From assembly GCA_946403755.1 (NCBI GenBank), contig CAMJBC010000007.1, positions 1-64,000 on the forward strand: 64,000 bases of DNA, read 5' to 3'. The DNA comes from an uncultured Mycoplasmatota bacterium (lineage in GTDB: Bacteria > Bacillota_I > Bacilli_A > RF39 > UBA660). Both the position numbers and the translations under genes were made by a program. Shown piece after piece: positions 13,835 to 40,552 of this stretch. Numbering within the stretch: the first letter of the stretch is position 1; each line of letters starts with the position of its first letter. The notes under the pieces were generated by a model. The model did no database searches. It was not told the origin of the DNA and saw nothing but the letters and a program-made list of their open reading frames with translations.

Positions 13835-13851
13835 TAGTATAGGTGAATAAT

Positions 13852-14418: not shown

Positions 14419-14427
14419 TGTAAATTT

Positions 14428-14452
14428 AAAGTGAAGAAATTCACTTTTTTTT
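14428..14452 (+). terminator. Terminator after the TasA-like gene
   Basis: An 8-bp stem (14428-14435 with 14440-14447) has a GAAA tetraloop and a following T run. Confidence 0.75.
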
Positions 14453-14461
14453 TGACCTTTA

Positions 14462-14490
14462 TTGTAAATAAAATATAAATTTGCTATGAT
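14462..14490 (+). promoter_or_regulatory. Promoter of the second SipW-associated gene
   Basis: TTGTAA at 14462-14467 and TATGAT at 14485-14490 are 17 bp apart. TGC just before the -10 makes an extended -10. Confidence 0.55.
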
Positions 14491-14513
14491 AATTATGATA
14501 TGGAGGTCTACAT

Positions 14514-15056: not shown

Positions 15057-15066
15057 GGGGATTACA

Positions 15067-15783
15067 ATGGAAGAGGAAAAAAGTATAAAAATAAGAAAAA
15101 CTATTAAAAAGGTAACAAATATTATTTCATATGCATTTATTACTATATTAATGATAATAGCTGCATTTTTAATACTATATGTTATATGTGGACAAATTGC
15201 TAAAAAGAGAAATGAAAATCCACCATTTGCACTATATACAATAATTAGTCCAAGTATGGAACCAAATATTAAAGTATTTGATGTTGTTTTTGTTAAAAAA
15301 ACAAATGTTAAGAAATTAAAAGAGGGGGATATAATAACTTTCTATTCAACAAATACTTTCTTTGGTAATACACCAATTACTCATAGGATTGTTGAAATAT
15401 TACAATTACCTGATGTAGAAATAGCATTTAGAGTAAAAGGAGATGCTAATAGTGTACCTGATGAAGAAAAAGTTATACCTAGTAATATTATAGGAAAAGT
15501 TATGTTTAAAGTTCCTAAACTAGGTAAAATGCAATATTATTTAGCATCTAAAAAAGGATGGATAATAGCTATACTAGTACCATCATTATTAATATTAGGA
15601 TATGATGTATTTAAGATAATAAGATTATTATTATTAAAAAGAAAGTTAAATAGTTATAACACTGAAAATAAAGAAACTATAGATCAAATAGAAAATGAAA
15701 GAAAACAAGAAATAATTAATAGTCAAATTAATAATAGTGTTATTCAAATAACTAATGATGAAAATAAAGAAGATTCTGAATAG
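15067..15783 (+). CDS. sipW: SipW-like signal peptidase I (ER/archaeal type)
   Basis: The start is ATG 15067 behind TAGGGGG; an earlier in-frame ATG at 15049 overlaps the previous stop and has no ribosome binding site. The 238-aa product has an N-terminal helix (about 20-42), the catalytic Ser in IISPSMEPN, His in TPITHRIVEI where typical bacterial enzymes have Lys, and the FRVKGDANSVPDEE box. A second helix lies at about 163-185, before a charged tail. Ser-His catalysis defines the ER-type SipW group, which matures TasA-like proteins. The two upstream secreted proteins are its probable substrates. Confidence 0.9.
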   Translation: MEEEKSIKIRKTIKKVTNIISYAFITILMIIAAFLILYVICGQIAKKRNENPPFALYTIISPSMEPNIKVFDVVFVKKTNVKKLKEGDIITFYSTNTFFGNTPITHRIVEILQLPDVEIAFRVKGDANSVPDEEKVIPSNIIGKVMFKVPKLGKMQYYLASKKGWIIAILVPSLLILGYDVFKIIRLLLLKRKLNSYNTENKETIDQIENERKQEIINSQINNSVIQITNDENKEDSE

Positions 15784-18565: not shown

Positions 18566-19183
18566 ATGAATCATAAAGTTAATAGTGTACAAAATCTATA
18601 TGAAGATGCAGTAGGATTATTTAATAATGTTGTAACAGGAGGAGCTAATACTAGCGCTGATACAATAATTACTAATATTAAAGCTGGAATCGATAATCTA
18701 AAAGGATGTTGGGAAGGAAAAGATGCAGGAGTTCAAATCCAAAATCTAGTTGTAGTTCACAATGGAATGGTAGAAATTAGAAATGCATTAGGAAGCCTAG
18801 CAGTAGATTCAAGTAAAATAGCATCTAACTATAGAAATATCCAAAATGCAAACGGAGCAGGATTAGAAGAATTAGGAGTTCTAAATTGCGAAGAAAGAGC
18901 TAAAACAGAAGATTATAGTGATACAAGAGATACTGTATCTATCACTGAAGAAGCTAATCAAGGAAAAGCAAAAGTAGATGCTGCTAACGATGCAATGGAT
19001 GGATTCATTGGAGATGTTAAGAAATACTATGGTCAAATCATGGATAACTGGACAAGTGGTACAGGAAGAGATCAAGCAACTGAAGCATTCGATACATTCT
19101 TAGCTAATTCAGGAAAATACAAAGAAACACTAAATAGCGTTTCTGAAAGTATTACACAAGCTATTAAGAATTATCAATTCTAA
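18566..19183 (+). CDS. Tandem WXG100-like secreted protein
   Basis: This 205-aa helical protein has two WXG100-like halves. The first half (about 1-95) carries WEG in NLKGCWEGKDAG, and the second (about 125-205) carries W-T-S-G in IMDNWTSGTGRD. Each Trp motif sits between long amphipathic helices. Typical WXG100 proteins are about 100 aa with one motif and leave through type VII secretion without a signal peptide, and none is seen here. No EssC/FtsK-type ATPase lies in the window. It has a strong ribosome binding site (TAAGGAGG) and its own regulated-looking promoter and terminator. It heads the secretion locus. The WXG100 call rests on motif and helical pattern only. Confidence 0.6.
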   Translation: MNHKVNSVQNLYEDAVGLFNNVVTGGANTSADTIITNIKAGIDNLKGCWEGKDAGVQIQNLVVVHNGMVEIRNALGSLAVDSSKIASNYRNIQNANGAGLEELGVLNCEERAKTEDYSDTRDTVSITEEANQGKAKVDAANDAMDGFIGDVKKYYGQIMDNWTSGTGRDQATEAFDTFLANSGKYKETLNSVSESITQAIKNYQF

Positions 19184-22716: not shown

Positions 22717-25700
22717 ATGAAAAAGTTTTTGGTATTTGTAATTGCTTTATTTATGTTTGGTATAACAGTTAAAGCAGATTGTTTAGAAAAGGAGTATTTA
22801 GATTGGTCTTATGATTTGAAACCAGTATTTACTGTATTTAATTATAATGATCATCAAGATTTAGATATTGAGAAATATAAATATGCTTATTTCTTATCAT
22901 TATCTAAACAAAGAGACGATATAACGTTTACAGTTACTGATAAATATAATAATACAGTACCAGCTAGTGATTATGAAGAATTAAAGTTGTATGCTGTTGG
23001 ATTATATAATGGTGTAGACGAAGAATCATATAAAATAAATGTATATGGTACTGCTAAAGGTACATGTGCTAATGAATTGATAACTACACTTGAATATACA
23101 GTACCTGCATATAATGAATATTATAAAACACAATATTGTGATAAATACAAAGAACATGAGTTATGCCAAGTATTTACAAATGCTACAAAAGGTATGACAC
23201 GTGATGAATTTAATACAATAATGAAAGAATATGAAGAAGGAAAGAATAAAGGGCTACTTAAGGTTGTTTTAAATTTCTTAAGTAAAGCTTGGATTTATAT
23301 AGTGTGTATACTAGTTCCAGTGATTGGAGTTTCAATATATTATAATATTAAAATTAAAAGGTATAAAAAAATGAGAAATAGACATGAAGTTAGAAGAAAA
23401 CATTATATATTTGTATTCTTATTATTAATTTGTTTAACTACTGTAAAAGTTAATGCTTCACTTACTTGTGGAGATGCAACTATTACAGAAACAGGTATAA
23501 CAAGTGCTGGATGGGCAACAAGAATGATAATGTGTGATTTTTATGATACAGGTAGAGTAACTGTATTTGGAGCTGGAGGTACAACATCAGCTGGTACTAC
23601 TAATGGAAGCCCAAATATTAGTGAGATGGGCACTGGTTATGGTAGTATGGCTGATGCAGTAGCTGCTGGAGAACAATTAGTTGCTCAAACAGTTTATTCA
23701 GCAGATGGTAAAAGTGCTAGTGAAATACTTGTTCCAATGTGTCTTGCTAAAGAAGATACTGATCCAGGAAAAAAATGGACGTTAGCTACAAAAAAATGTA
23801 CTTGCCAAGATTATGATCAACCTTGTTATGATCAAGAAACAGGAAATATTACTTCTTATTCTTGCCCAGGTGAACCATATGATTGTTCAACAGAAAATTT
23901 AGTTCAAGGAGAAGATGCAGAATGTAATGCTTGTCCTGGAAATACAAAAGAAGAAGGCGAGTGTACTAAAGAATACTATATTACATGTCCTATCTATGCA
24001 TGTAGTCCAGTTGAAAAGACTGTTGAAGGATGGTGTAATGCTAAATTTAAAGTAGGAAGCGATGATGCTTACTGCGTTAACCCTAGTGATAAATTCCCAC
24101 ATGGAATACCAAATAACTATCAAACTCAAAAGTTTGATCCAACTACTTGTTCAAGTAGTACTGATACTCCAGATTGTGGATTTGCTAATATATTAATTGA
24201 AGCAGCTTATTATAATCAAAATCATTCAAATAAGATTTCATATGAAACCATTAACTTTGCTTTAAGACTTTGGTCTGGTGAAGTTCAACTTGGTGGTTTC
24301 TATAGAGTAGGTCTTGCTTATATGATGGGTTATGGATGTAATGAATATGTTGCATATCCTGCAGGAAATCCAAATGTATATCTAGCATCATTAGAATACA
24401 TAACTAGATTATATTTTGAAGCTATATCAAGAGAAGGAGTAGATCATAGTGTAGAATCACTTATTAATAATAACTTCTTTAGTGCTATAGCTTGTAAACC
24501 TGGACAATTAGGTGTTGTATGTCATGGTCAAACAGATACTTATGTTCAAGCATTTGCATTATATTTTAATACTTACTTTGGTAATGATTTTAGAAATCAT
24601 TTAGCAGCATTATATGGTGGTAGAGAAACAGAACCAATAGCAGCTACAGTATCAAGTGAAGTAATAGATGAATATAGTGTAGTAGAAGTAAAATATAGAG
24701 AAGAAGTAACAATCGGTGAAAAAATCGAATGTTCTGATATAAAAGCTAAAAAAGCTTCAGGTAAAACATTAACTGAAGATGAACAAAAAGTATTAAATTA
24801 TTGTAACAATGAAATTACTCATGTAATTGGAGTAAGACCTGATGGAACAATGATTGATCTTGCTACTAAGACAATTGTTACAGACTTAAATGGTGATGGA
24901 GTAATCAACGCAAAAGATTTCTTGTTATTACCACAAGGAGAAACATATGACTTTTCTTATTGTCAAAAGAATAGTTGTTTCTCACCAACAGTTTATTTTG
25001 CAATTTGCGATACTGTTAAAAAAGAAGAAGAAAGATACGAAACAATATATACAACAATTAGATATACAGAATCTGGTTCAAGATATAGTATTAAGAAATA
25101 CTTAGCTTGTGGTTCAGGAGATTATCAAATAATGTTCTCTTATGATGAAGATGAGGGACCAACTAATATTTGGGATGAAACAACTCCAACAGTATTAGAA
25201 CCAACTAAAACAGTTACTGTAGACTTCTATTGTTATGATGAGGGTGGATGTGATAATTACACATTAAGAACTGAAGAAAAATGTGCTAGATCATCTGGAA
25301 GCCATGGTTCATTAACAATAAAAGATCCATCATTAAGTTGTATTGTTAATATGCAAAGTACTGTTGCTAAGAACTCTTATGATTATAGTAATTTCTTCGG
25401 AGTAAATAGTGATTTCTGTAAGATTTATTGTAGTGATAGTGCTGAATTCTATATGGCTGATAAAGTTGATATTTATTCAGGTTTATCATTCAAATTAGAT
25501 ATAGAATATGATGTATTTAAGAATAATAAAACAAATAGACCAATATCTAATGTAGTATTAATGAAAAGAGATTGTGTATCTAAGATATTCTATGATAACA
25601 ATAACTTTGAAAGTGGTACTGATTGGACACAAAAGTATTCAGGATTAAGTAGTAATCCAAAGAACTGGAAAGAATTACATGCTGCACTTAAAAAATATGG

Positions 25701-26937
25701 TCTTGCAGCAGGACATATAAATCAAATTGAATATGATTTATATAACTGTAATTTATATTCAGATATTCCTGTATATCGTCCAAAAGAGAATAAGATAGGA
25801 AATGTATATAATAGAATTAAAGAAATTTATTCTGCTGAAAATAGTTATGGATTTAATGGAGATAAATATGGTTATAACTTTGATTCTAAATTATCTGAAA
25901 CAGATAATAATATAATTTATTCAGATGTTAAATATGGCGGTGGTGCTCTATATGTTAACTCTAAAAATAGAGTAGGTGCTGAATATGGTGACGTTAAATT
26001 AAATTATGTAATTAACAATCATAATAAATATTCTGGAAATGTTTCTCCAGTAACATATTGTAAAGGTACTAAGTGCTTCGCTTATGATAAAGAGGGCGAT
26101 GAATATAAGATGCCTGATGAATATGGTAGTGGAACAGGTAGAGTTATTTCAACAGCTCAAGGAAGTGGAATACCTACAAATGATTATGCTTACTTCTCAA
26201 TAGTAAATGAAGTAGACTTCTATAATGATAGTAGATTCCAAGTTGAAACATATACTGGAAATATATTTGATGCTACTAATAAAGAAAAAGATGATGATTA
26301 TACTGATTTAGATAAATATATATATCCAGTAGCTAAAGATGCTAGTGTTGAATGTAAGGGTGATAAATGTAGCCTAGATCATAGATTTAACGTTTTACAA
26401 ACATATTATAGAAAAATGGGTAGTGGTACAAATGCATTTAAAGATGCTATTAAATCAGTAACTCATACTTGCCCAGTGGAATATAAACCAATACCACTTG
26501 AAAACAAAAATGAGGCAATATATAGAAATGTTGATATTTCTAACTTATTCCCAACAACTTTAAGTGATGGTTCAAGAAGAATTGGAGCTAACTGGCAAAA
26601 TTCAACAGCTTATATTGAAGAAATAGAAAATTATGTTAAGGGTAATGGTGAAGTTAAATACTATGAAACTCACCTTGAATATAGTTATACTCTTTCAGCT
26701 GATACATTGAAGAAAATAAAAGAATATAATTCTCAAACAGCTGGTTCTAAATCATATGTTGATAACTCTATAGAAAAAGGATCTTGTGTAGATGCTAATG
26801 GTAAGAAATTTGATTGTAGAACTAAATTTATTTCAACAATCAATAGTAATACAAACTCATATGGAGTTGTTAACAATAGACAAGGACAAGAAAGAGGAGT
26901 TTCCGAATATACTGCTGATAAAAAAGATGAAGACTAA
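22717..26937 (+). CDS. Giant Cys-rich exported protein A with internal second signal peptide
   Basis: The start is ATG 22717 after TAGGTG; earlier in-frame codons are rejected. The product is 1406 aa. Signal peptide 1 covers 1-20 (cleavage likely after TVKA). A roughly 170-residue exported module has a C141/C150 pair in YYKTQYCDKYKEHELC. A transmembrane helix (about 191-209) and a basic cytoplasmic loop (210-229) follow, then a second signal-like segment ending TTVKVNA at 247. The remaining roughly 1160-residue Cys-rich domain would be released if cut there. It contains a FCVNP-like YCVNPSDK region, an EF-hand loop (726-737) and a C-terminal RGVSEYT. No LPxTG-type tail is seen. It is paralogous along its whole length to the next gene. 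The function is unknown; a surface adhesin or pilus cargo is likely. Confidence 0.7.
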   Translation: MKKFLVFVIALFMFGITVKADCLEKEYLDWSYDLKPVFTVFNYNDHQDLDIEKYKYAYFLSLSKQRDDITFTVTDKYNNTVPASDYEELKLYAVGLYNGVDEESYKINVYGTAKGTCANELITTLEYTVPAYNEYYKTQYCDKYKEHELCQVFTNATKGMTRDEFNTIMKEYEEGKNKGLLKVVLNFLSKAWIYIVCILVPVIGVSIYYNIKIKRYKKMRNRHEVRRKHYIFVFLLLICLTTVKVNASLTCGDATITETGITSAGWATRMIMCDFYDTGRVTVFGAGGTTSAGTTNGSPNISEMGTGYGSMADAVAAGEQLVAQTVYSADGKSASEILVPMCLAKEDTDPGKKWTLATKKCTCQDYDQPCYDQETGNITSYSCPGEPYDCSTENLVQGEDAECNACPGNTKEEGECTKEYYITCPIYACSPVEKTVEGWCNAKFKVGSDDAYCVNPSDKFPHGIPNNYQTQKFDPTTCSSSTDTPDCGFANILIEAAYYNQNHSNKISYETINFALRLWSGEVQLGGFYRVGLAYMMGYGCNEYVAYPAGNPNVYLASLEYITRLYFEAISREGVDHSVESLINNNFFSAIACKPGQLGVVCHGQTDTYVQAFALYFNTYFGNDFRNHLAALYGGRETEPIAATVSSEVIDEYSVVEVKYREEVTIGEKIECSDIKAKKASGKTLTEDEQKVLNYCNNEITHVIGVRPDGTMIDLATKTIVTDLNGDGVINAKDFLLLPQGETYDFSYCQKNSCFSPTVYFAICDTVKKEEERYETIYTTIRYTESGSRYSIKKYLACGSGDYQIMFSYDEDEGPTNIWDETTPTVLEPTKTVTVDFYCYDEGGCDNYTLRTEEKCARSSGSHGSLTIKDPSLSCIVNMQSTVAKNSYDYSNFFGVNSDFCKIYCSDSAEFYMADKVDIYSGLSFKLDIEYDVFKNNKTNRPISNVVLMKRDCVSKIFYDNNNFESGTDWTQKYSGLSSNPKNWKELHAALKKYGLAAGHINQIEYDLYNCNLYSDIPVYRPKENKIGNVYNRIKEIYSAENSYGFNGDKYGYNFDSKLSETDNNIIYSDVKYGGGALYVNSKNRVGAEYGDVKLNYVINNHNKYSGNVSPVTYCKGTKCFAYDKEGDEYKMPDEYGSGTGRVISTAQGSGIPTNDYAYFSIVNEVDFYNDSRFQVETYTGNIFDATNKEKDDDYTDLDKYIYPVAKDASVECKGDKCSLDHRFNVLQTYYRKMGSGTNAFKDAIKSVTHTCPVEYKPIPLENKNEAIYRNVDISNLFPTTLSDGSRRIGANWQNSTAYIEEIENYVKGNGEVKYYETHLEYSYTLSADTLKKIKEYNSQTAGSKSYVDNSIEKGSCVDANGKKFDCRTKFISTINSNTNSYGVVNNRQGQERGVSEYTADKKDED
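24892..24927 (+). other. EF-hand/dockerin-like calcium loop inside giant protein A
   Basis: The encoded loop DLNGDGVINAKD (residues about 726-737) has Asp/Asn/Asp/Gly at calcium-loop positions and a following hydrophobic helix start (FLLLP). It resembles half of a type I dockerin. Paralogue B has no equivalent. Confidence 0.55.
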
Positions 26938-26958
26938 TTGAAAAATTAGTCTTTTTTT
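26930..26958 (+). terminator. Terminator of giant protein A, contains the stop codon
   Basis: A perfect 10-bp stem (26930-26939 with 26944-26953) has a GAAA loop and a T run. The TAA at 26935-26937 is in the left arm. Confidence 0.85.
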
Positions 26959-27021
26959 AATTGTATAAATATGATAAAATTATATTGAGTAATTATATAC
27001 AATAATATGGCAGGTAGAAAT

Positions 27022-30000
27022 ATGAAAAATATATCAAAATTAATTATATGTATATTATGTTTCATTGCATTTAGTTTTAATGTTAAAGCTGCATGTAATG
27101 ATCCTGAATTAAATGACTTTGTTGAGGGCTTAAAAATAGAGTTTTTTGCGCCTAGATTAGAATCAGATTTTTCAAAAGAATATCTTGATAAAATAGGCAA
27201 TGCTACAACAGCTGGATATGCATATTATTTTATATTTAATAAACAAGAATTTGGTGATAAAAAAATACAAGATATTTTAGAAATAGAAGCAATTGATGGA
27301 TCAGGTAAACCTGGTGAATGGAAATATCAAGAACCTATTGCTAAATATGGAGTAGGTGGATACAACGCTGTTGAAGAAGAAATATACACTTTAAGAATTA
27401 AAGCTGTATCTGGTAAATGTAAGGGACAAGTATTAAAATCATCAACTTACACTATTCCACAATTTAATATGTATGTTCAAACTGCATATTGTGAAAAATA
27501 TCCACATCATGAATTATGCCAAACATTTACTGATAAAACTAAAAATATGAATGACGCTGATTTTGGAAAAGCAATGCGTGAATATGAACAAGAAATTAAC
27601 AACAATAAAAAAACATTAAAAGATTTATTCTTAAAATACTATACATATGTTTTGTGCGTTGTAGTACCATTTGTATTAGTATCAATTTATTATAAGAGAA
27701 GAATTAAAAGATTAATTAAACTTAAGAGTCAAGAAGAGGAAAGACATATTACTAGAAGAAAAGTTGAATTATTCTTTATTGCATTTTTACTTCTTATGCC
27801 AACTTTAAAAGCAGCATCTGAAGAATGTACTATCGAAGTAAGAGAAGTTAGTCAATTAGTAACAGTTCCAGGAATTAAAGTTAGTGTTGAACACTGTGGA
27901 TGGGGTGAAAGCGGACTTTGGAATGGACAAAAATTTACTACAACTGGTCATGGGTCTACATTTCAAGCAATTAGATGGGGTAAACAGGAAGTTTGGGCTC
28001 AAGTTCGTGGTTGCTATGATGAAGGCTGGTATGGCAAAATTAAAAGATGTATTATGAAAGAAGATGGAGGCCAAGGTCAAATTCATATTGAAAAAACAGC
28101 AACAACAATGTGTGCTGATAATGGTGCCGAATGTATCTATGAAAAAAAATGGCATGAACCAAAATATGATCCCGAAACAAATACAACAACTGAAGGTTAT
28201 TGGGAAGATATAAAAGGTTGGGAATGTTGGGGTTCGTGTGGTAAAGAAAAAAGATGGTGTGGACAAAGATCATATTCATCAACAAAATCTGCTAATTTTG
28301 ATGGAGCACACGCTGCTGCAATGGGAACATTATGTGAGGATGCTGAAAAAGATTGCAAATCTCAAGCTGAAGGTGAAGCTAGTGGAACAGTTTCTTGCGA
28401 GGAAGTAATAGAATGTGAAGAAACTTCTTGGACTATTTGTCCGATGTATCCTTGCGAAGCTACTAGAGATCTAGTTGAACCTACAACAACTGAATATACT
28501 ATACATGGCGTTGAGGCATTTTGTGTAAATCCAGGAGAAAAGGCTGCTGAAAAATATAAAGAAGTTACTATTGATGCTAATGAGTGTACAAATGGAAACT
28601 CTTCAGTAGATTGCGGTTTTGTAAATATTTTATTGGAAGCAAAATATTTTAATGAATATACAAACAAAAATAAACCATACAAAATACCGGATGAAATAAT
28701 TAATTTAGCTATGCGTTTATGGGGAGCATATACAAATCAAGGAGGCTTTGGTACCATTGGTATTGGAGTATTTACTGGTCCTGATTGTAAAATAGAACAA
28801 GACCAATATGGATGGGCTCCAGGGTCACCATGTTTAGATATGGTATATTTAAATCCAGCAACTGGAAAACCAGATGATAGTTATTTAAATGTTTACGTTA
28901 AAACAGTAGAATATATGTTAAGTAATCCAAGTAAAGTATCAACTGTATCTTTAGGAGCATATGATTCACTTAGAAGTGTTGAAATAGAAGAAGCAACAAC
29001 AATATTTAGCGGATTAGAATGTGTAGATGGCGAAGGAGTAATGTGTGGTAATGACAACATGAAATATGCTTTAGCATTATTCTATAACACTAAAAATGGT
29101 AATAAAAAATTTAAAGAACATATGAATACAGTGTTTGGTTCATTATCTACTAGACCTGTTGATATAACTATTTCATCTCAATCACAAACTCAAACAATAG
29201 CAAGTAATGAAACAGCTGTTTATGAAGAAGTTGATTGTGTTAGAGATGCAAATGGTAATTGTAAAATTAATAAAACAATATTAAATATAGAATTTAGTGA
29301 AGAAATTACAACTAATTCTAAGAGAATAGATTGTACTGATTTAAGAAATAAAAAGAAAAACAATCAAAGTTTAACAGCAGAAGAATTAACAATGCTTAAC
29401 TATTGTAATATTGAAGTTACTGAAGTTAGAGCTTACCATAATGATGGTTCTTATACTCTTTATACTAATAATACATATAGAGAATGTAGTGCTGATGATG
29501 TATGTGGAGCATCACATCCTTATTCAGGTGCTATTGGTAGTATTACTGCCTGTCAAAAATCAACGTGTATTGCTGAAACAAGGGTATATGCTGATTGTAA
29601 AGAGGATGTTAAAAAGATTGTTACAAAAATTAAATATAAACAAACTAAATCTGAGCATGGATTTAAAAAATATGTATCTTGTAATACTGCTAATCCAAGA
29701 GTAAATGCTGGTTTAGTTAACCAATTCTTATATAAAATGGAACCAATTGATAGAATAGTTGATGCTGGAATTGGTGAGGATGAAATAGTTGAATTAGAAA
29801 CATATCCATATTGTGAAGTTGATTGTAAAGATTTAACTATTAAGGAAAGCAAAAAGAAATGTGATGAACCTCAAGCATCTAAGATTAGCAACTATGCAAG
29901 TTCATCAAGCAAAAAAACATACGAAACTTCAATTCATGATCCATCATTAAGTTGTATTTTAAATACTTATCCAGAACGTAAGACAACTTATGATTATAGT

Positions 30001-31812
30001 GATTATTTTGGAGTAAATACTGATGTATGTAGAGTTTATTGTAGTGATTCAGCTCACTTCTATCTACCAGAAAAATCTGTTATATACACAGGATTATCTA
30101 TGAAGTATGATATTGAGTATTCACTATTTGGAGAAAATAGATCTAAAAAATCATTAACAAGTATTGTTGAAATGAGAAGAGACTGTGTTTCTGAAATATA
30201 TTTTGATTATGTAGATTCAAGTAAAACATTCCAGTCTATAGCTCGTAAGTATGGTTTTGATTCATCAATGGTAAATAATTATACTGTTAATGATTGGATA
30301 TCATTATATAATGCTGTTTATCATAGAGTTACTAATTATGAAAACAAACGTAATGAAACATTAGTAAAATTAATATATGATTTATATAATTGTAATATGT
30401 TTAGTAATATTCCAATTGAAAGACCAAAAGATGATACTACTGGCCCAATCTTTACAAATGTAATACCAGAAAAATATGGTAATAATTATGGTTTTGAAGA
30501 TTGTACTATTAATGAATCAACAAATACATGTTTAACATATGATGGTATGACTTATGATGGTGGTGCTAAATTTGCAAATGATTCAATAGCTAAATCAAAA
30601 GGAGCAGCTGAAGTTGGTGATACAAGAGATACAATTCAATATAAACATACAGTTGAATTAAATGATAAAATTAATGGTAAGAACTTACCAGTAATTAGTA
30701 ATGTTAGATATTGTAAAGGAAAAGGATGTTTTGATTATTTACAATTTGTAATTAGTGATCCTGATAAAGTAGATGAGAATCTTAAGAAAGGTGAATATGC
30801 TTTACCTAATGTTAGAGTATCTTTACCAGCTGCAGGAAAACTATTTGTTGTAAATGCATATAATCCTGAAACTGAAAAATATGAGGCTACACAAAAATCA
30901 TTTATAGAATATGATAGTGACACACCTCAATTACAAAAGGTACCTTTTGTTACTAATAGTAAAGAATTATCTAACAAATATATACCAAATTCAGATTATG
31001 CATATTTTACTATATCAACTAGAGTAGGGTTCTATAATGATAGTGAGTTCCAAGTTCAACCGTATTCAGGCCATTTATATGATGTAACTAGTGGTTCACC
31101 ATATTATGAAGAAAAAACAGATTATAGAACTAATCTTGATAAAGGATTATATCCAATAGATCAAAGATTAAATGAATGTACAGTAGTTGCGGAAAGCAAG
31201 AAAGGTACAAATTATTATAAATGCGAAACTGTTAGTTATTTTGGTGCTATGAATACATATCATAGAAACTTTGGTGAATTAACTAATGGTACTAATGTTC
31301 CTAAAGCATTAGATAAATTCTATTTAGCTATTAATGCTTCTGATAAAACTAAGTTTACATGTAGTTTTATTGGTAAATATTCATTTGATAATTTACCTCA
31401 AGCTGCATATAGAAATGTTGAGTTAACAAATATGTTCCCATCTGATAGAATGATAGGTAAGAACTGGAATACAGAAGCAGCTGAAAAGTATAGAGAAAAT
31501 ATAAAAAATTATATTGAAAGTAAAAGTATTGTTGAGTATTATAATTCTCACCTTGAATATAGTTATTCATTTACTCATGATGCGTTAATGAAAATAAGAG
31601 AAGATAATGCTAAAACACAAACTTATACTAACAACAATATTTACGGTAATACGATAAAAACTGTAAAAAATAACTCATATATTAAGCTACGAAGTCGATT
31701 TATTGATATAATAGAGACAGATGGTAATGCTTATGGTGCAGAAAATAATCGTAAAGATAAACGAAGAGGTGTTTCAGAATACACCGAAGAAGTAGAGAAG
31801 GAGGAAGGTTAA
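27022..31812 (+). CDS. Giant Cys-rich exported protein B with internal second signal peptide
   Basis: ATG 27022 has GCAGGTAG upstream; ATG 27007 overlaps that ribosome binding site. The product is 1596 aa with the same plan as protein A. Signal peptide 1 spans 1-23 (VKA). An exported module carries the C157/C166 pair in YVQTAYCEKYPHHELC, followed by a transmembrane helix (about 207-224), a basic loop (225-247) and a second signal-like segment ending TLKA at 264. A roughly 1330-residue Cys-rich domain follows. Shared blocks with A include AFCVNPGEK, CGFVNILLEA, MRLWG, IHDPSLSCIL and the C-terminal RGVSEYT. The next gene starts 2 nt after the stop. Its extra length relative to A lies mostly in the first part of the Cys-rich domain. 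The function is unknown. Confidence 0.7.
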   Translation: MKNISKLIICILCFIAFSFNVKAACNDPELNDFVEGLKIEFFAPRLESDFSKEYLDKIGNATTAGYAYYFIFNKQEFGDKKIQDILEIEAIDGSGKPGEWKYQEPIAKYGVGGYNAVEEEIYTLRIKAVSGKCKGQVLKSSTYTIPQFNMYVQTAYCEKYPHHELCQTFTDKTKNMNDADFGKAMREYEQEINNNKKTLKDLFLKYYTYVLCVVVPFVLVSIYYKRRIKRLIKLKSQEEERHITRRKVELFFIAFLLLMPTLKAASEECTIEVREVSQLVTVPGIKVSVEHCGWGESGLWNGQKFTTTGHGSTFQAIRWGKQEVWAQVRGCYDEGWYGKIKRCIMKEDGGQGQIHIEKTATTMCADNGAECIYEKKWHEPKYDPETNTTTEGYWEDIKGWECWGSCGKEKRWCGQRSYSSTKSANFDGAHAAAMGTLCEDAEKDCKSQAEGEASGTVSCEEVIECEETSWTICPMYPCEATRDLVEPTTTEYTIHGVEAFCVNPGEKAAEKYKEVTIDANECTNGNSSVDCGFVNILLEAKYFNEYTNKNKPYKIPDEIINLAMRLWGAYTNQGGFGTIGIGVFTGPDCKIEQDQYGWAPGSPCLDMVYLNPATGKPDDSYLNVYVKTVEYMLSNPSKVSTVSLGAYDSLRSVEIEEATTIFSGLECVDGEGVMCGNDNMKYALALFYNTKNGNKKFKEHMNTVFGSLSTRPVDITISSQSQTQTIASNETAVYEEVDCVRDANGNCKINKTILNIEFSEEITTNSKRIDCTDLRNKKKNNQSLTAEELTMLNYCNIEVTEVRAYHNDGSYTLYTNNTYRECSADDVCGASHPYSGAIGSITACQKSTCIAETRVYADCKEDVKKIVTKIKYKQTKSEHGFKKYVSCNTANPRVNAGLVNQFLYKMEPIDRIVDAGIGEDEIVELETYPYCEVDCKDLTIKESKKKCDEPQASKISNYASSSSKKTYETSIHDPSLSCILNTYPERKTTYDYSDYFGVNTDVCRVYCSDSAHFYLPEKSVIYTGLSMKYDIEYSLFGENRSKKSLTSIVEMRRDCVSEIYFDYVDSSKTFQSIARKYGFDSSMVNNYTVNDWISLYNAVYHRVTNYENKRNETLVKLIYDLYNCNMFSNIPIERPKDDTTGPIFTNVIPEKYGNNYGFEDCTINESTNTCLTYDGMTYDGGAKFANDSIAKSKGAAEVGDTRDTIQYKHTVELNDKINGKNLPVISNVRYCKGKGCFDYLQFVISDPDKVDENLKKGEYALPNVRVSLPAAGKLFVVNAYNPETEKYEATQKSFIEYDSDTPQLQKVPFVTNSKELSNKYIPNSDYAYFTISTRVGFYNDSEFQVQPYSGHLYDVTSGSPYYEEKTDYRTNLDKGLYPIDQRLNECTVVAESKKGTNYYKCETVSYFGAMNTYHRNFGELTNGTNVPKALDKFYLAINASDKTKFTCSFIGKYSFDNLPQAAYRNVELTNMFPSDRMIGKNWNTEAAEKYRENIKNYIESKSIVEYYNSHLEYSYSFTHDALMKIREDNAKTQTYTNNNIYGNTIKTVKNNSYIKLRSRFIDIIETDGNAYGAENNRKDKRRGVSEYTEEVEKEEG

Positions 31813-32418: not shown

Positions 32419-32494
32419 TTTGTGTAAAGTGATATTTCATTTTGTGCATAAAATATGGTATTATGGTAATATATATTATAGGAAGGTAAGTATA

Positions 32495-34141
32495 TTGAAA
32501 GAGTATATTGTAATATCATTAGAAGGAAATACTTTAGTCTTTAATTATAGAACTATTACTCCTGAAGAGGAAAAGTTTGTTAATAACAATAGTTTTTTTA
32601 AAGACAGTCTTTTTTATACTCTAAAATACTATAAAAGTAATAAAAAGAAAGTATATAATACAATAGAAGTAAATACTAATAATATGTTTGTATCTACAAT
32701 GAGAATTAGTAGATTAATTACTTTTAAATATGCTTATATGTTATTTGATGGTTTAAAATTATCATCACTAGTATTAGATTTTTCATCAACAATTGATATG
32801 GAAGATTATGAATTATTTTTATCATCAGATACTTTAAAGAATATTGATTGTTATTTTATGCCAAGTACTTATGTAAATAAGTTCACTGCTAAGGGTGTAA
32901 AAGTTAACATGTTTTCAACAAAAAAATTATCTAATAGATTTATGTCAGGACAAAATGTATTAACAGAAGATTCATTATATTATAAGAAAACTGTTAATGT
33001 TAATGAAGATTATCCTGAATTAATAGATGATATTACTGAATTTTTAAAAATTAATTATAAATTAAAAGCTATACATTTATATGTATTTTCTAAAGAATTA
33101 ATTAATTCAATAATAGATTTAGTTAAACAAGATGAATCTAGAAATGTAGTTGTATTTTTACACCAAGGTTATGATAAAGGAAACTTTATTGTTAATAACT
33201 TCTCTTGGTTAAAAGAAATAAGTGAAAAATGTAAAGAAGATTATACATGTGAATTTAGAATTATATATTCATCATCTTTCTTAAAAAATAATTTATTTAA
33301 ACAATTAACATTTAATAATTTAAAATTAATATCTATTTTATGTATATATGTATCAGTTGTATGTATTATGCTTATTAAATCATATGAATATATAGAAAAA
33401 ATGAGTATTAATACATTATCTAGTGACTTAATTAATGATTCATATGCTGTACCTGATTATTATGTTGAAGAAGCTGATGGAGATGGTGATGGCGTATATG
33501 TTGTTGATCCATTAGAAGAAAAAGATGAAATATCAACAATGACTAAAGAAGAAGTTAAAAGTAAATATAGTTTTGATAGATCATTTAAGAAATTAAAGAA
33601 AATTAACAAAGAAACAGTTGGATACTTAGTTGTTAATAATACTGAGATATCATACCCAGTAGTGCAACATTCAGATAATAGTTATTATTTAAAAAGAGAT
33701 TTTTATAAAAGAGTAACTAGTATGGGATGGATTTATCTAGATTATAGAAATAATATAGAAGAATTAAATGATAATAATATTATTTATGGACATAGCATGT
33801 TAAATGGAACTATGTTTGGTACACTTAAGAAGGTATTATCTTCATCTTGGAGAAAAGAAGATGAAAATATGATAATAACTTTAGATACAGAGCAAGGTCA
33901 TTTAAAATTTAAAATATTCTCTGCTTATAAAGTTGATTATACAACTGATTATTTAAAAACTGATTTTGCTAATAAAAAGGAAAAAGAAGCATTTATTAAG
34001 TTAATTAGTGGTAGAAGTAGTTTTAAATCCAAAACTAAAGTTACTGCTAAAGATAAAATATTAACTTTATCTACATGTACAGGAAGTAATAATAAAAGAT
34101 TAGTTGTACATGCAGTATTAATAGGAGATGAAGAAGAATGA
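32495..34141 (+). CDS. Class B-type sortase fused to a large cytoplasmic domain
   Basis: A TTG at 32495 is chosen because GGAAGG lies 8-13 nt upstream; upstream in-frame codons have no ribosome binding site. The product is 548 aa. Residues 1 to about 275 are a soluble alpha/beta domain I do not recognise. A transmembrane helix follows (about 281-300), then an acidic linker and a sortase domain (about 360-548). Catalytic residues are H433 in IYGHSM, C528 in TLSTC and R535 in NNKRLVVHA. The TLSTC and length fit class B sortases. A cytoplasmic domain this large is unusual, because sortases normally have only a short N-terminal anchor. No LPxTG/NPxTN-type tail was found in the neighbours. It overlaps the next gene by 4 nt (ATGA). 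Confidence 0.85.
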   Translation: MKEYIVISLEGNTLVFNYRTITPEEEKFVNNNSFFKDSLFYTLKYYKSNKKKVYNTIEVNTNNMFVSTMRISRLITFKYAYMLFDGLKLSSLVLDFSSTIDMEDYELFLSSDTLKNIDCYFMPSTYVNKFTAKGVKVNMFSTKKLSNRFMSGQNVLTEDSLYYKKTVNVNEDYPELIDDITEFLKINYKLKAIHLYVFSKELINSIIDLVKQDESRNVVVFLHQGYDKGNFIVNNFSWLKEISEKCKEDYTCEFRIIYSSSFLKNNLFKQLTFNNLKLISILCIYVSVVCIMLIKSYEYIEKMSINTLSSDLINDSYAVPDYYVEEADGDGDGVYVVDPLEEKDEISTMTKEEVKSKYSFDRSFKKLKKINKETVGYLVVNNTEISYPVVQHSDNSYYLKRDFYKRVTSMGWIYLDYRNNIEELNDNNIIYGHSMLNGTMFGTLKKVLSSSWRKEDENMIITLDTEQGHLKFKIFSAYKVDYTTDYLKTDFANKKEKEAFIKLISGRSSFKSKTKVTAKDKILTLSTCTGSNNKRLVVHAVLIGDEEE

Positions 34142-34773
34142 AAAAGTGGTTAATTGCTATATTATTGATTTGTCCTATATTTATAAAGGCAGAGTGTAAT
34201 TATAATAAACATACAGAATTTTCAAATTTTGCTAATTATATTACATATGAAACAGAATATAGTAAGAGTGATGCTAAATTTACTATTACATTCTATAATG
34301 TAATAAAAGGTTTATCATTTAAAATAGGTAAGAACACATTTGAACCTACTGAAAATGATACTATAGTATTAACAGATATAGAAGAAGGAAGAATATTAGA
34401 CATATATGTTTATGGAACTGATGGATGTAGTTCTCAAGTAGGTAATTTAAATGTAACATTGCCATATTATAATCCATATTATGGTACTGAAATATGCAAA
34501 GGATATGAGAATTTAACATTATGTGCATCTAATTTTACTGCTACTAAAGCTACTAAACAAATGATTGAAAAAACCAAAGAAAGTTATGATAATGTTATAA
34601 TACAAGAATCTAATGAAACAACTGAAGAACCAAGTGCAATTAAAGAAATTGGTTCAAAAGTATGGGATTTCTTTGTTAAATATGTATCAAAAGTATTATT
34701 AATAATAGGATCTGGTGTTTTATCAGTTATATATTATGATAATAAATTAAGTAAAGTAGAACATGGAATATAA
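34138..34773 (+). CDS. Stand-alone copy of the giant-protein N-terminal module
   Basis: This 211-aa protein has a signal peptide (1-18, cleavage after IFIKA), an exported domain and a C-terminal transmembrane helix (about 180-200) with a short basic tail. The segment NLNVTLPYYNPYYGTEIC and the following LC, nine residues after the first Cys, match the same blocks in giant proteins A and B. Unlike them it stops after the first transmembrane helix and has no second signal peptide or Cys-rich domain. It overlaps the sortase by 4 nt, so the two are co-translated. The arrangement suggests the module is a membrane adaptor of the secretion machine. Confidence 0.7.
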   Translation: MKKWLIAILLICPIFIKAECNYNKHTEFSNFANYITYETEYSKSDAKFTITFYNVIKGLSFKIGKNTFEPTENDTIVLTDIEEGRILDIYVYGTDGCSSQVGNLNVTLPYYNPYYGTEICKGYENLTLCASNFTATKATKQMIEKTKESYDNVIIQESNETTEEPSAIKEIGSKVWDFFVKYVSKVLLIIGSGVLSVIYYDNKLSKVEHGI

Positions 34774-34885: not shown

Positions 34886-35716
34886 ATGAGGAGTATTTTG
34901 GTAGGAGTAAAAAGATTTTTAACAAATAAGAACACTATAACAATACTAGCTATTGTTGGTTCTTTAGTGTTACTATATTGGGCTTATAATAAAAGAATTG
35001 AAGATGCTACTAGTCCTAAACCAGTAGTTGTTGCAATTAGTGAAATAGGTCCAAGAACACTTATTACAAGTGATTTAATTACAGTAAAGAAGATTCCAGG
35101 ATCAGTAATAAAAGATGTTTATTACAATACAAATGATGTAGTAGGAAAATATGTATCTAATGACGCTGTAATTCCAGCAAATGGAATGTTTTATGAAAGC
35201 ATGGTAAAAACTTGGGAACAACTTCCAAGAAGTGTTTATGGAGAAATTCCAAATGGAAATACAGTAGTTGCTTTACAGGTAACTTTAGATAGTACATATG
35301 GAAATTCAATTTTCCCTGGAAACTATATAGATTTATACTATAAAGACATTGATGATAATGGAAAATTAATGGTACAAAAGTTTATCGAAAGTATCAAGGT
35401 TTTAGCTGTTCTTGATTCAAATGGTAGAAGCGTATTTGAAACAAATGGTGCTTTATCAGCCCCAGCATATTTGATGTTTAGTGTACCAGAAGATATTCAC
35501 TTATTATTACAAAAGGCAACTTTCTTAGATAGTACAATATTCCCAGTACCAAGAAATGCTAATTATTCAAATGGAACTCCTAGAGAAACAAGAGTAGTAA
35601 GTACTTATATTAAAGAATATATATTAAATAGAGCAGTTGATGTTAATGCTAAAGATCACAACTTAACAATTAGTACTGATGATGGTAGTAAGATTGACGC
35701 TATGATAGTAGAGTAG
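34886..35716 (+). CDS. CpaB/RcpC-like SAF-domain pilus assembly protein (copy 1)
   Basis: This 276-aa protein has an N-terminal transmembrane helix (about 16-34) and an extracytoplasmic SAF domain (about 45-110) with VAISEIGPRTLITSDLI and the DVVGKYVSND block. A second beta-rich region with GNSIFPGNYIDLYY follows. This is the layout of CpaB/RcpC, which in diderms links the inner platform to the secretin and in monoderms is thought to interact with peptidoglycan. A paralogue begins 10 bp downstream. AAGGAGG supports the start. Confidence 0.82.
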   Translation: MRSILVGVKRFLTNKNTITILAIVGSLVLLYWAYNKRIEDATSPKPVVVAISEIGPRTLITSDLITVKKIPGSVIKDVYYNTNDVVGKYVSNDAVIPANGMFYESMVKTWEQLPRSVYGEIPNGNTVVALQVTLDSTYGNSIFPGNYIDLYYKDIDDNGKLMVQKFIESIKVLAVLDSNGRSVFETNGALSAPAYLMFSVPEDIHLLLQKATFLDSTIFPVPRNANYSNGTPRETRVVSTYIKEYILNRAVDVNAKDHNLTISTDDGSKIDAMIVE

Positions 35717-35726
35717 GAGGAAAGAA

Positions 35727-36515
35727 ATGAAGGCATTACAAAATAAAACAGTAGTTACAATTTTAGCTGGTATTATCTGCGTAGCTATTCTAGCTATCTC
35801 TTATTACAATAGAGTTAATAAAAAAATTAGTGCTGTTCCAGTACCAATTGCTAAAGTAGATTTAGTAGCTAGAGAACAAATTACTGCTGATAAAATTGAT
35901 AGTATTAAAGTTGCAAGTTCTGCAATTACTAAGAATGTTCTTAGAGATACAAAAGATATTGAAAAGAAATATGTAAATTATAATACAAAAATTCCAAAAG
36001 GTAGTTTCTTTTATACAAATGCTGTAGTTGATTGGTCAGTTATGCCAGATGCAGCATGGAGTGAAATTAGTGATGATACTACAATCGTATCATTACCAGT
36101 TAATAATAGATCTACTTATGGTAACTCAATTTATCCAGGAGACAAAATAGATTTATATTATCGTACTCAAGATAAGGGATTACTTGTTTATGGTAAATTG
36201 ATTGAAGGTATTACAGTATTAGCAGTTAAAGATAGCCAAGGTTATCATATTAATCAAAAATCTGCTAGTCAAAAAGATGCTGTAGCATTAATATTTAATG
36301 TTCCAGAAGATCAACATTTATTATTAAGAAAGGCATTATATTTAGATGGTAGTGGTTTAATTCCAGTACCAAGAAATGCTGCATATTCACAAAGTGATGT
36401 TGAAGCTAATATTAGTAGTGAATACTTAAAAGGTTTAATTAATAATAGATGTAAAGAAGTACCACTTGATACAGTGGCTAATAATAATACAACAAATGTT
36501 AAAGTAACTGAATAA
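35727..36515 (+). CDS. CpaB/RcpC-like SAF-domain pilus assembly protein (copy 2)
   Basis: This 262-aa paralogue of the previous gene shares the N-terminal helix, the SAF region (AKVDLVAREQITADKIDS), GNSIYPGDKIDLYY and the PVPRNAAYS block. The presence of two copies suggests two interacting SAF subunits, possibly a hetero-oligomer. The ATPase gene follows after 26 bp. Both copies lack extra C-terminal domains. Confidence 0.82.
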   Translation: MKALQNKTVVTILAGIICVAILAISYYNRVNKKISAVPVPIAKVDLVAREQITADKIDSIKVASSAITKNVLRDTKDIEKKYVNYNTKIPKGSFFYTNAVVDWSVMPDAAWSEISDDTTIVSLPVNNRSTYGNSIYPGDKIDLYYRTQDKGLLVYGKLIEGITVLAVKDSQGYHINQKSASQKDAVALIFNVPEDQHLLLRKALYLDGSGLIPVPRNAAYSQSDVEANISSEYLKGLINNRCKEVPLDTVANNNTTNVKVTE

Positions 36516-36541
36516 AAAAATAGAATGAAAGAAGGGTAAAA

Positions 36542-37891
36542 ATGGAGGATGTTGTTTTTTCACAAATAGATTTTGGCTTATTAATGCCTCTTTTAGAGGA
36601 TGATGATATAACAGATATTTCTTATTCCAATAATGGTCAATTATGGGTTAAAACACTTTCTCAAGGTGTTCAACCAAGACATATAGAAGGATTAACTAAT
36701 GAAGTTATTGAAAAGCTTGCTTTCCAATGTTCTAATGTCATGGGAAAAACATTTAATATGGCACACCCTTTTCTAGATGCTGAAAGTGCTGAGCTTCGTC
36801 TTAATTTTGTTCATAATAGTATAGCTACTAATGGAGTTGCACTATTAATAAGAAAAACTCCAGCAAAAATAAGACTTAATAAAGAAAAATTAGTTGAAGA
36901 AGATTATGTATCAGTTAAGTTACATGATTTTCTAATAACATGTGTTCAAGGACACTGTAATATACTTGTTAGTGGAGAAACTGGTTCAGGTAAAACAGAG
37001 CTAGTTAAATACTTAGCAAGTCATACTAAAGAAGATGAAAAGATAATTACTATTGAAGATACTTTAGAACTTCACTTAGATAAGATTTATCCTAATAGAG
37101 ATATAGTGGCTATGAAAACAAATAATATAGCATCTTATTCTGATGTGTTAGTTACTTGTATGCGTCAAAACCCAAGATGGATTTTACTATCAGAGGTTCG
37201 TTCTGCTGAAGCTGTTATGGCTGTAAGAAACTCTATTTCTTCAGGTCACAACATTTTATCAACAATCCACTCTGATAAAGCATCAAGTATTCCAATGCGT
37301 CTTTATTCACTATTAGAATCAAGTCAGGAAATTGATCAATTCTTAAAGAGTATACATAGATATGTTCAAATTGGTATTCATGTTAAAGGTTTCTTCTCTA
37401 AGAAGTATGGAAGATTTCAAAGAGAGATTACTCAAGTTTGTGAATTCTATGTTGATGATGAAGCTAATGAAGCTAAAGTTAATGTTATGTATCAAAGAGA
37501 CTTAGCTGGAAATGAAACATATAATAATCCAACTAGTCATTTAATAGATTATTTAGCTAGTCAAGGTGTTGAAATGAGACCTGATCCATTTGTTCCAATT
37601 GATAGTACATTAAAGGAAACTACTGAGGAACCAAATGTTGAGGTAAATAATGATGTTAATGTAGTACAAGTTGAGGCTACTCCAGAAGAAGCTCCAGCAG
37701 AAACTGCTCCAGTCGAAGCACCGGCTGAAACACCTGCGGAGGCACCTACTGAAGTTGCTGTGGCTGAACCACAAGATGCTACACCTGCAGCTGATGAAGC
37801 TACAATAGTTTTAGATACTCCTGTGGTAACTGAAAATGCACCACAAGAAGCAAGCCCAAGTGGTAGTAATTTTGAAATATTAGATATATAG
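36542..37891 (+). CDS. cpaF: CpaF/TadA-type secretion ATPase with acidic Pro/Ala-rich tail
   Basis: This 449-aa protein is in the VirB11/CpaF ATPase family. An N-terminal domain (1 to about 130) precedes Walker A GETGSGKTE (about 144-152), an Asp box (IITIEDTLE), Walker B RWILLSEVR and a His box (HNILSTIHSDK). It powers pilus assembly and retraction at the inner face of the membrane. From about residue 355 a low-complexity tail rich in Glu, Pro, Ala and Val follows, with markedly higher local GC; typical CpaF proteins have no such tail. It ends with hydrophobic FEILDI, which may be a docking motif. The TadB gene begins 13 bp later. Confidence 0.93.
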   Translation: MEDVVFSQIDFGLLMPLLEDDDITDISYSNNGQLWVKTLSQGVQPRHIEGLTNEVIEKLAFQCSNVMGKTFNMAHPFLDAESAELRLNFVHNSIATNGVALLIRKTPAKIRLNKEKLVEEDYVSVKLHDFLITCVQGHCNILVSGETGSGKTELVKYLASHTKEDEKIITIEDTLELHLDKIYPNRDIVAMKTNNIASYSDVLVTCMRQNPRWILLSEVRSAEAVMAVRNSISSGHNILSTIHSDKASSIPMRLYSLLESSQEIDQFLKSIHRYVQIGIHVKGFFSKKYGRFQREITQVCEFYVDDEANEAKVNVMYQRDLAGNETYNNPTSHLIDYLASQGVEMRPDPFVPIDSTLKETTEEPNVEVNNDVNVVQVEATPEEAPAETAPVEAPAETPAEAPTEVAVAEPQDATPAADEATIVLDTPVVTENAPQEASPSGSNFEILDI

Positions 37892-37904
37892 GAGGTGTAT
37901 TTAG

Positions 37905-38804
37905 ATGTATATTGAAGTAATTATTGTCGGAATAATAATTTTATTTGTATTTATCTATAGACAAAATACAGGTAATAACTCTTATAAGTTTATTGCAAGA
38001 ACTGTAGGTAATACATATGAAAAATTCTCTCCTTATTCATTTAGAGTAGTTCGTGAGAAAGCTAAAGAATTAGGACAAGAATATACTGCTAGACAATATA
38101 CAATTCAAGTAGTTATATTTGGTGTAACTGCAGCATTTGTTTCATACTTATACTTCTATAGTATATTATGGAGTTTAATATATGCAGCAGCAGCTATTGC
38201 TTTTATACCATATTTAGCTTATATGAGATGTAAAAAAGCATATAGTGAATTTATATTTGAACAAATACAAATATATACTACTAACGTAATTATGGAATAT
38301 AATACACAACAATCATTTGTAAAATCTTTAGAAGGAGTTAGAGATTCTGGAGTATTAGAAGAACCATTATTATCAGATGTTAAAGAAATGATTCAAATGG
38401 CATATGATAGTGGTACTATTGATGATGCTGTTAGATTCATGAATGAAAAATATGATTATTATGTAGTTAAAAACATGCATCAATTATTCATTCAAATCAC
38501 TAGAGAAGGTTCTAAAGATTCAGGTGAAGCTTTAGAAGGAATGCAAATGGATATAGACATGCTTGTTGAAAGTGTATATAGAGATAGAATAGATAGAACA
38601 ACTTTCTATAAACAATTTATTACATTTGGTATTATGTTATACTTCCTAGTTTTATTAGTACAATTGTTAATAGGAAGCGATGGTTATTTAACAATACTTG
38701 GTAAGTGGTACGTTGTGTTATTGCTGCACTGCGTAATACTTATAAATACGTTCTTCTTATTATCAGGTATTAAATTTTACCATGAGGATGTGGGGGCTGA
38801 ATAA
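37905..38804 (+). CDS. tadB: TadB-like T2SSF platform protein
   Basis: This 299-aa inner-membrane platform protein of the type II secretion F family has an N-terminal helix (MYIEVIIVGIIILFVFIY), a middle helical hairpin (about 70-110), a cytoplasmic F domain (about 120-220) and two C-terminal helices. It partners TadC and the CpaF ATPase. GGAGGTG overlaps the cpaF stop, so the genes are translationally coupled. Its TAA shares one nucleotide with the TadC ATG. Confidence 0.88.
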   Translation: MYIEVIIVGIIILFVFIYRQNTGNNSYKFIARTVGNTYEKFSPYSFRVVREKAKELGQEYTARQYTIQVVIFGVTAAFVSYLYFYSILWSLIYAAAAIAFIPYLAYMRCKKAYSEFIFEQIQIYTTNVIMEYNTQQSFVKSLEGVRDSGVLEEPLLSDVKEMIQMAYDSGTIDDAVRFMNEKYDYYVVKNMHQLFIQITREGSKDSGEALEGMQMDIDMLVESVYRDRIDRTTFYKQFITFGIMLYFLVLLVQLLIGSDGYLTILGKWYVVLLLHCVILINTFFLLSGIKFYHEDVGAE

Positions 38805-39604
38805 TGATAGAGATTGTAATAGTTGGAGTAATAATGATTTTTGTATTTACCTATGTTGGAGCTTTCAACTTTGGTAAATTTGTAGATGATAATAAAGCAT
38901 TGTTTGGAAGATTAAAAGAAGATGATTATGATTTCTTCTTAAGATCTAAATATGGTGAACAAGTAGATCTTAACTTAAAATTCCAAAGCAGAGTAAAAAC
39001 TGCAATAATATCTTTATTATTTACATCTGTATTAGCAATAGCATATTTTGATAATGTTAATGTTGCTGTTAAATTGGTAGTTGTAATAGGAGTTACATAT
39101 TTCATGTATAAAGATGATTATACAAGAGTTAAAAACTATTATAGAGTACACTTACATGATATTAACTTAAAATTACCATATTATTTAAAAAGTTTAGAGA
39201 TATTAATTCAACACTATACAGTTCCTGTAGCAATTACAAGAAGTGTAGAAGAAGCACCTGAAATGTTTAAACCAGGTCTTAGAGAATTAATAGCTGCTAT
39301 TGACGCTGGAGATGCAACAATTGAGCCATATATGGCATTTGCAAGAAGATATCCAGTTAGAGATTCAATGAGAATGATGAGACTACTTTATAGACTTAGT
39401 CTTGGTAGTCAAGAAAGAAAACAAGAACAATTAACTGTTTTCTCAAGAACAATATCAAATTTACAAGCTAAATCAAGAGATACTAAGTATAAAGAAAGAC
39501 TTGATAAAATGGAAAAGAAAACAATGACTATGTTAGTAGCAACAGGTGCTGGCGTAATGGTTGTTCTTCTATTATCTGTTTTACAAACATTTGGCAGTAT
39601 GTAA
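38804..39604 (+). CDS. tadC: TadC-like T2SSF platform protein
   Basis: This 266-aa second platform protein has an N-terminal helix (MIEIVIVGVIMIFVFTYV) strikingly like that of TadB, two helices at about 67-100, an F domain (LPYYLKSLEILIQHY to SLGSQERKQEQ) and a C-terminal helix (MLVATGAGVMVVLLLSVL). It starts within the TadB stop codon. The Tad core operon ends with this gene; the next gene has its own promoter. Confidence 0.88.
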   Translation: MIEIVIVGVIMIFVFTYVGAFNFGKFVDDNKALFGRLKEDDYDFFLRSKYGEQVDLNLKFQSRVKTAIISLLFTSVLAIAYFDNVNVAVKLVVVIGVTYFMYKDDYTRVKNYYRVHLHDINLKLPYYLKSLEILIQHYTVPVAITRSVEEAPEMFKPGLRELIAAIDAGDATIEPYMAFARRYPVRDSMRMMRLLYRLSLGSQERKQEQLTVFSRTISNLQAKSRDTKYKERLDKMEKKTMTMLVATGAGVMVVLLLSVLQTFGSM

Positions 39605-39613
39605 CCAATTCTA

Positions 39614-39642
39614 TTGAACCAAAAAAAAATATGTCGTATAAT
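39614..39642 (+). promoter_or_regulatory. Strong promoter of the small pilin gene
   Basis: TTGAAC at 39614-39619 and TATAAT at 39637-39642 have an optimal 17-bp spacer. Confidence 0.75.
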
Positions 39643-39670
39643 TAATATATAGTATAAAGGAGGATATACA

Positions 39671-39952: not shown

Positions 39953-39987
39953 TAAAAAAAATAATATAGAAAGAAGGGAAAACTTGT

Positions 39988-40548: not shown

Positions 40549-40552
40549 TAGT

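Follow-up and report, generated by a model that had tools for sequence, protein, structure and literature searches.

The window (the whole stretch of DNA that was analysed, 64,000 nucleotides) belongs to a 1.19 Mb assembly of 13 contigs with a low G+C content; the named organisms closest to it are uncultured gut Bacilli/Tenericutes. On its forward strand lie two giant genes, here called A and B. A is a single open frame from the ATG at 22717 to 26937, encoding 1406 amino acids, and B is an open frame from 27022 to 31812, the longest possible frame starting at 27007 and encoding 1601 amino acids (translation table 11 in both cases). Protein A begins with a signal peptide, MKKFLVFVIALFMFGITVKA/D (22717-22776; the slash marks a predicted cut), recognized by its hydrophobic core and AXA-type site and ending with VKA/D at residue 20. 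There follow an exported module 1 (22777-23289), a transmembrane helix (23290-23349, residues ~192-211), a basic, predicted cytoplasmic linker (23350-23391) that contains a run of seven adenines and an in-frame ATG, and a second hydrophobic segment with the features of an internal signal peptide (23392-23457). The core of this segment spans residues 231-243 (13 residues), the motif VNA occupies 245-247, and cleavage is predicted at KVNA/SL after residue 247. The remainder is module 2, a giant cysteine-rich exported domain of 1159 amino acids with 41 cysteines (23458-26934).

Protein B is built in the same way. Its signal peptide, MKNISKLIICILCFIAFSFNVKA/A (27022-27090), ends with VKA/A at residue 23, and its module 1 (27091-27636) is homologous to that of A, both being exported domains of ~170-180 residues. 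The transmembrane helix (27637-27693, residues ~206-224) is followed by a basic, predicted cytoplasmic linker without any in-frame ATG, GTG or TTG (27694-27756) and by the putative internal signal peptide (27757-27813), with a core at 250-259 (10 residues), the motif LKA at 262-264 and a predicted cleavage TLKA/AS after residue 264. Module 2 (27814-31809) counts ~1330 amino acids and 47 cysteines. The original prediction had described this succession, in which a signal peptide and an exported module are followed by a transmembrane helix, a basic loop, a second hydrophobic segment with a signal-peptidase-like site, and the Cys-rich domain, and all of it is present in both proteins. The loop has the excess of basic residues that had been claimed, with 10 K/R against 1 D/E in A and 11 against 4 in B.

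For module 1 of A, AlphaFold2 predicts an Ig/FN3-like beta-sandwich (mean pLDDT 81.6); Foldseek found no confident match for this model, and VIA-align returned only common Ig/FN3-like matches with Z scores of at most 7. The model of A module 2 is of moderate confidence (mean pLDDT 67). It had no significant match in Foldseek, and none turned up either when the module-2 profile was run against solved structures. VIA-align nevertheless pointed to a stretch early in module 2 that resembles a thioester domain (23959-24636, approximate boundaries), with a conserved cysteine at residue 453. The module scores Z 9.8, 9.4 and 8.1 against the TIE thioester domains 6fwv, 6fwy and 6fx6, and the next, unrelated structure scores 5.6. 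The thioester cysteine is kept in most of 38 family members. The glutamine of the TQxA motif, on the other hand, is an asparagine in A and B and is variable elsewhere, so that a canonical thioester is unlikely; a glutamine occurs at this position in only two of the 38 members (L022 and L026, in a TQLA or IQLA context). The Pfam family TED (PF08341) matched one of the 38 members (E 0.0015) and neither A nor B. Since the glutamine is not conserved and this match is lacking, A and B are not filed as TED adhesins. A dockerin match on A (E 0.011, below the cut-off) was set aside, since it reflects a weak resemblance to an EF-hand around DLNGDG. At the C-termini of A and B, no LPxTG-like motif, transmembrane segment or basic tail was found, the tails ending with RGVSEYT and charged residues.

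The region of A and B is the 5' part of a locus that resembles those of Tad/Flp pili. Immediately downstream lies a gene for a small TadE-like membrane protein of the DUF5411 family (PF17424, 31814-32395, forward strand, E 1.4e-48), a family found in 311 of the 386 sampled family genomes. It is followed, on the same strand, by a class B sortase whose N-terminal part is long (32420-34141, TIGR03064, E 6.9e-53) and by an unfused, stand-alone paralogue of module 1 consisting of signal peptide, domain, transmembrane segment and short tail (34138-34773, module-1 HMM E 2.5e-40). The sorting motif of a sortase substrate is absent from both giant proteins, even though the sortase is encoded within this Tad-type locus. 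The Tad/Flp core itself extends from 34886 to 41569, also on the forward strand, with two CpaB/RcpC proteins, a CpaF ATPase (36542), TadB/TadC-like proteins (37905 and 38804), an Flp-like pilin (~39666-39937), a TadE-like protein (39988) and a TadZ-like protein (40553). CpaB and CpaF were assigned by Pfam and the other Tad genes by sequence anatomy and gene order. CpaF, two TadB/TadC-like proteins, CpaB/RcpC, an Flp-like pilin and a TadE-like protein thus stand together here, as in a Tad/Flp pilus locus. The thioester-domain-like fold and the surrounding Tad locus suggest an adhesin, either at the cell surface or at the tip of a Tad pilus, as the likeliest role of the giant domain.

Other genes of the window may be mentioned here. 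At 18566-19183, a WXG100-like protein (TIGR03930, E 3.3e-9, below the cut-off) adjoins an 872-aa protein without Pfam match; genes of a T7SS were not noticed in its vicinity. At 13843-15783, two small exported proteins stand beside a signal peptidase of the SipW/archaeal type (TIGR02228, E 2.4e-28), an arrangement reminiscent of TasA/SipW-type matrix loci. In a related genome (G395; L113, 11435-11853 and 16086-16504), both DUF5411 copies carry in-frame stops (TAG and TAA), while the giant genes upstream of them are intact.

The relatives encode the same proteins in two genes instead of one. In the first relatives whose genes were complete, a separate gene of 216-271 amino acids encodes module 1 directly 5' of the giant gene, and the latter opens with a signal peptide of its own. 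Loci of relatives were reached with CpaF and DUF5411 as anchors; a degenerate pattern derived from module 2 of B gave no matches in a scan of genome contigs, because this module diverges too fast. The module-1 HMM was run over about 100 loci, which came from genus members, from 80 named contigs and from other sources. This gave 111 stand-alone matches, and fusions to a giant protein occurred only in A and B of the window, besides one odd ORF of 497 amino acids. In 76 of the 77 pairs that were fetched, the module-1 gene is separate from its giant neighbour, overlapping or nearly touching it. The most common arrangement is a 4-nucleotide overlap (ATGA, -4) between the start of the giant gene and the stop of the module-1 gene, and spacings of -1, +1 and +4 nucleotides also occur. 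In these pairs, too, the giant gene begins with a signal peptide of its own. The two genes of the relatives are translationally coupled pairs, and from the prevalence of separate, touching genes it follows that A and B are gene fusions.

Fusions also exist elsewhere in the family. Module-1 profile searches covered 386 family genomes, 145 genomes with one per genus, and 241 of the order, which together make ~450 distinct genomes; matches were listed completely for the 145-genome search, and for the other two the statements hold among the matches listed. Long open frames among the matches listed are A (1426), B (1607), one in genome G102 (1558) and one in genome G043 (513), the last two being the only fused ORFs listed from outside the window. 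The ORF of G102, which belongs to another genus, encodes 1556 amino acids on the minus strand (L115:2454-7124). Its junction reads ...KKKKLFLLLLILVLLPFTAHA/EE, with the site TAHA/E, and it adjoins ftsQ/murB/murG, away from the Tad locus of that genome; it is a separate fusion event. The ORF of G043 has the junction ...HFILVLIILFSLSISSNINA/LT, with the site NINA/L followed by YCVDPG, and is interrupted further on by a frameshift. The original prediction had called such a gene uncommon in bacteria. That judgement is reasonable, since within the family itself a fused ORF occurs in 3 of ~450 genomes among the matches listed, but polyproteins processed by signal peptidase are already known (see below).

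As to the origin of A and B, their modules 2 are sisters in a tree (SH-aLRT 99), and a tree of module 1 does not resolve whether the modules 1 are. The linkers have the codons AGA CAT nnn nnT AGA AGA AAA in common, and several relatives carry split pairs in tandem. The simplest history would be a single fusion followed by tandem duplication of the fused gene. In one locus (L111, 10002-10820 and 14312-14989), the tandem module-1 copies are near-identical and their giant partners different, which suggests gene conversion or a recent duplication of module 1 alone.

Whether the second hydrophobic segment behaves as a signal peptide or as a transmembrane helix can be approached by comparison with the split proteins. 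A cleavage site was defined as alanine at -1 combined with a residue at -3 that is small or aliphatic, located 1-9 residues past the hydrophobic core. Such a site accompanies 89% of the signal peptides at the N-termini of split giant proteins (n=66) and 74% of the module-1 signal peptides (n=84), against 2% of the module-1 transmembrane helices (n=87) and 8% of internal transmembrane-like segments (n=987). It is present at all four fused junctions (A, B, G102 and G043). Signal peptides have a mean core length of 14.8, module-1 transmembrane segments one of 17.8, and the internal segments of A and B, with 13 and 10, are short. A small home-made logistic classifier, used in a supporting role only, gives the internal segments signal-peptide-like scores of 0.90 (A) and 0.83 (B), and the module-1 transmembrane segments of the same proteins 0.39 and 0.001. 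Its cross-validated accuracy rises from 0.73 with the core to 0.85 with the motif added and 0.96 with the following charges as well. The core as such thus separates the two classes poorly, for which reason the argument is founded on the cleavage motif and on homology.

This homology extends to the site itself. In an alignment, the junction of A, ...RRKHYIFVFLLLICLTTVKVNA/SLTCGDATITETGITSAG, corresponds to the start of the split giant protein L104, MNKKTLKVLISLALLFVFTSNVNA/SLRC...VTITETGITDAG, and to that of the split L101, ...TTTVNA/SLVC...VTITETGITPAG. KVNA/SLTC of A is aligned with NVNA/SLRC and TVNA/SLVC, and the three proteins have TITETGIT in common further downstream. A and its split relatives agree in where the cut is predicted and in where the mature protein would begin. 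The assignment of the second segment as a signal peptide, already made in the original prediction, is supported by its match to the relatives' N-terminal signal peptides in position and sequence, by its short core and by its site. Judged by these comparisons, the internal segment is the ancestral N-terminal signal peptide of the giant gene, enclosed by gene fusion. The genome encodes homologues of signal peptidase I.

On this basis we infer the following course of events, to which we assign a probability of about 0.76. The ancestral pair would have consisted of a membrane-anchored module-1 protein, with signal peptide, Ig/FN3-like domain, C-terminal transmembrane segment and short basic tail, and of a giant Cys-rich protein that was secreted by a signal peptide of its own. 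One fusion of this coupled pair and a subsequent tandem copy of the fused gene would have given A and B. In the fused protein, the first signal peptide would bring the chain to Sec and be removed, and module 1 would be translocated until its transmembrane helix halts the transfer, with the basic loop remaining on the cytoplasmic side. Translocation would then be resumed at the former signal peptide of the giant protein, which now lies within the chain, and type I signal peptidase would cut behind VNA in A and LKA in B. The products would be the ancestral ones that the relatives make from two genes, namely module 1, retained in the membrane, and the released giant domain, and they would arise at a constant ratio of 1:1. 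Cleavage into these two products is the best reading of the sequences.

It could also be imagined that the fused proteins stay uncleaved, the second segment being a genuine transmembrane helix that forms a membrane hairpin with that of module 1 and tethers the giant domain to the surface. A helix, a basic loop and a second helix are topologically sound, and a new tether could be of help to proteins that have neither an LPxTG-like tail nor a C-terminal transmembrane segment. However, the cores, of 13 and 10 residues, are short for a membrane span and correspond to those of signal peptides; an uncleaved helix has no need of the small-residue site that all four junctions display; and in the relatives the giant protein is secreted from its own cleavable-looking signal peptide. 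We consider such a hairpin unlikely.

The fusion in A depends on the run of seven adenines at 23365-23371 in its linker, through which its single frame passes. With one adenine fewer, module 1 would end with KRYKK and a stop, and the giant gene would start as MRNRHEVRRKHYIF at an ATGA overlap, the commonest arrangement of the family. The fusion could reflect an error of one base in the homopolymer, slippage that took place recently, or a site that is prone to it. In the case of an error (seven adenines for six), A would be an ordinary overlapping pair and only B would be fused, an explanation that recommends itself by the way in which the loss of one base restores the usual layout. Yet 24 further coding A/T runs of at least seven occur in the window, all within intact ORFs, so such errors are infrequent. 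Moreover, B is a fusion whose linker offers no codon for an in-frame start, and the two proteins are sister sequences in module 2 and have linker codons in common. An error in A seems improbable. A search for the junction of A in viral contigs gave no matches. B has no such loophole: with neither ATG nor GTG nor TTG in frame in its linker, it must be read as one protein, and the idea that the fused ORF is an annotation accident was rejected, given the lack of a stop and of an internal start and the codons that its linker has in common with that of A. The fusion of A is therefore less certain than that of B. The homopolymer, the gene fusion and the Tad-pilus context are points that go beyond the original prediction.

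Very improbable, finally, is an internal translation start by which the long ORF would also yield module 2 on its own without any peptidase: A does have an in-frame ATG (23371, residue 219) 28 residues before the site, with a weak AAGG 9 nucleotides 5' of it, but the linker of B has no start codon, the only in-frame start-like codon of G102 is a TTG inside the hydrophobic core, and the product would bear the same signal peptide with the same place of cutting.

Polyproteins matured in this manner have precedents. FbcH of Bradyrhizobium japonicum, the cytochrome b/c1 polyprotein, is encoded by one gene and gives two products by signal peptidase cleavage at an internal signal peptide, while its relatives have two genes. 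A and B are like FbcH in the internal signal peptide of the second product and in the two-gene relatives. They differ in that both parts of FbcH are respiratory subunits, whereas A and B would combine a small membrane protein with a giant Cys-rich surface protein in a pilus locus, with a predicted cleavage. LtaS of Staphylococcus aureus is cut internally by SpsB at A217/S218 (PMC10865820). There too, a type I signal peptidase site past an internal hydrophobic segment allows a large extracellular domain to be freed (PMC10865820), as predicted for A and B, but LtaS is a single polytopic enzyme with a regulatory cleavage and no fusion of coupled genes. In view of FbcH and LtaS, internal processing by signal peptidase is not a new mechanism. 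The novelty lies in the substrate, which combines a giant Cys-rich surface protein with a small membrane partner, in the fact that the fusion recurs in three lineages, and in the direct comparison that many split relatives allow.

The surroundings have their parallels as well. Tad pili elsewhere bear adaptable tip complexes (PMC12075869), and DUF5411 operons of Clostridia are predicted to be secretion or pilus systems (PMC9523054). These Tad/Flp tip loci (PMC12075869) and DUF5411 operons (PMC9523054) are similar to the window in having a CpaF-type ATPase, a PilC/GspF-type protein and DUF5411, and large variable proteins beside Tad minor pilins. The window differs from these loci in its pair of module-1 and giant proteins with cleavable signal peptides, which form a polyprotein in A and B, while a TadG-type tip is a minor pilin. 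With the TED adhesins and TIE proteins (6fwv, 6fwy, 6fx6), A has in common a cysteine that is mostly conserved and, early in module 2, the predicted fold; A and B differ from them by the asparagine in place of the TQxA glutamine, a position variable in the relatives, by the lack of a C-terminal sortase signal and by their richness in cysteine.

It is tempting to speculate that fusion to a polyprotein processed by signal peptidase arose at least three times in this family, tolerated or favoured as the internal signal peptide restores the products in a 1:1 ratio, and that slippage at the seven adenines could switch between a polyprotein and two proteins; this is a tentative and rather doubtful extension. 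The same protein pair occurs in nature, recurrently, as two genes or as what appears to be a self-separating polyprotein. Because it exists in both forms, the equivalence of an internal and an N-terminal signal peptide is testable on native sequences. That they are fused suggests that module 1 and the giant protein are partners, physically or in stoichiometry, and the Tad-pilus-like locus with these parts is widespread in uncultured gut Bacilli.
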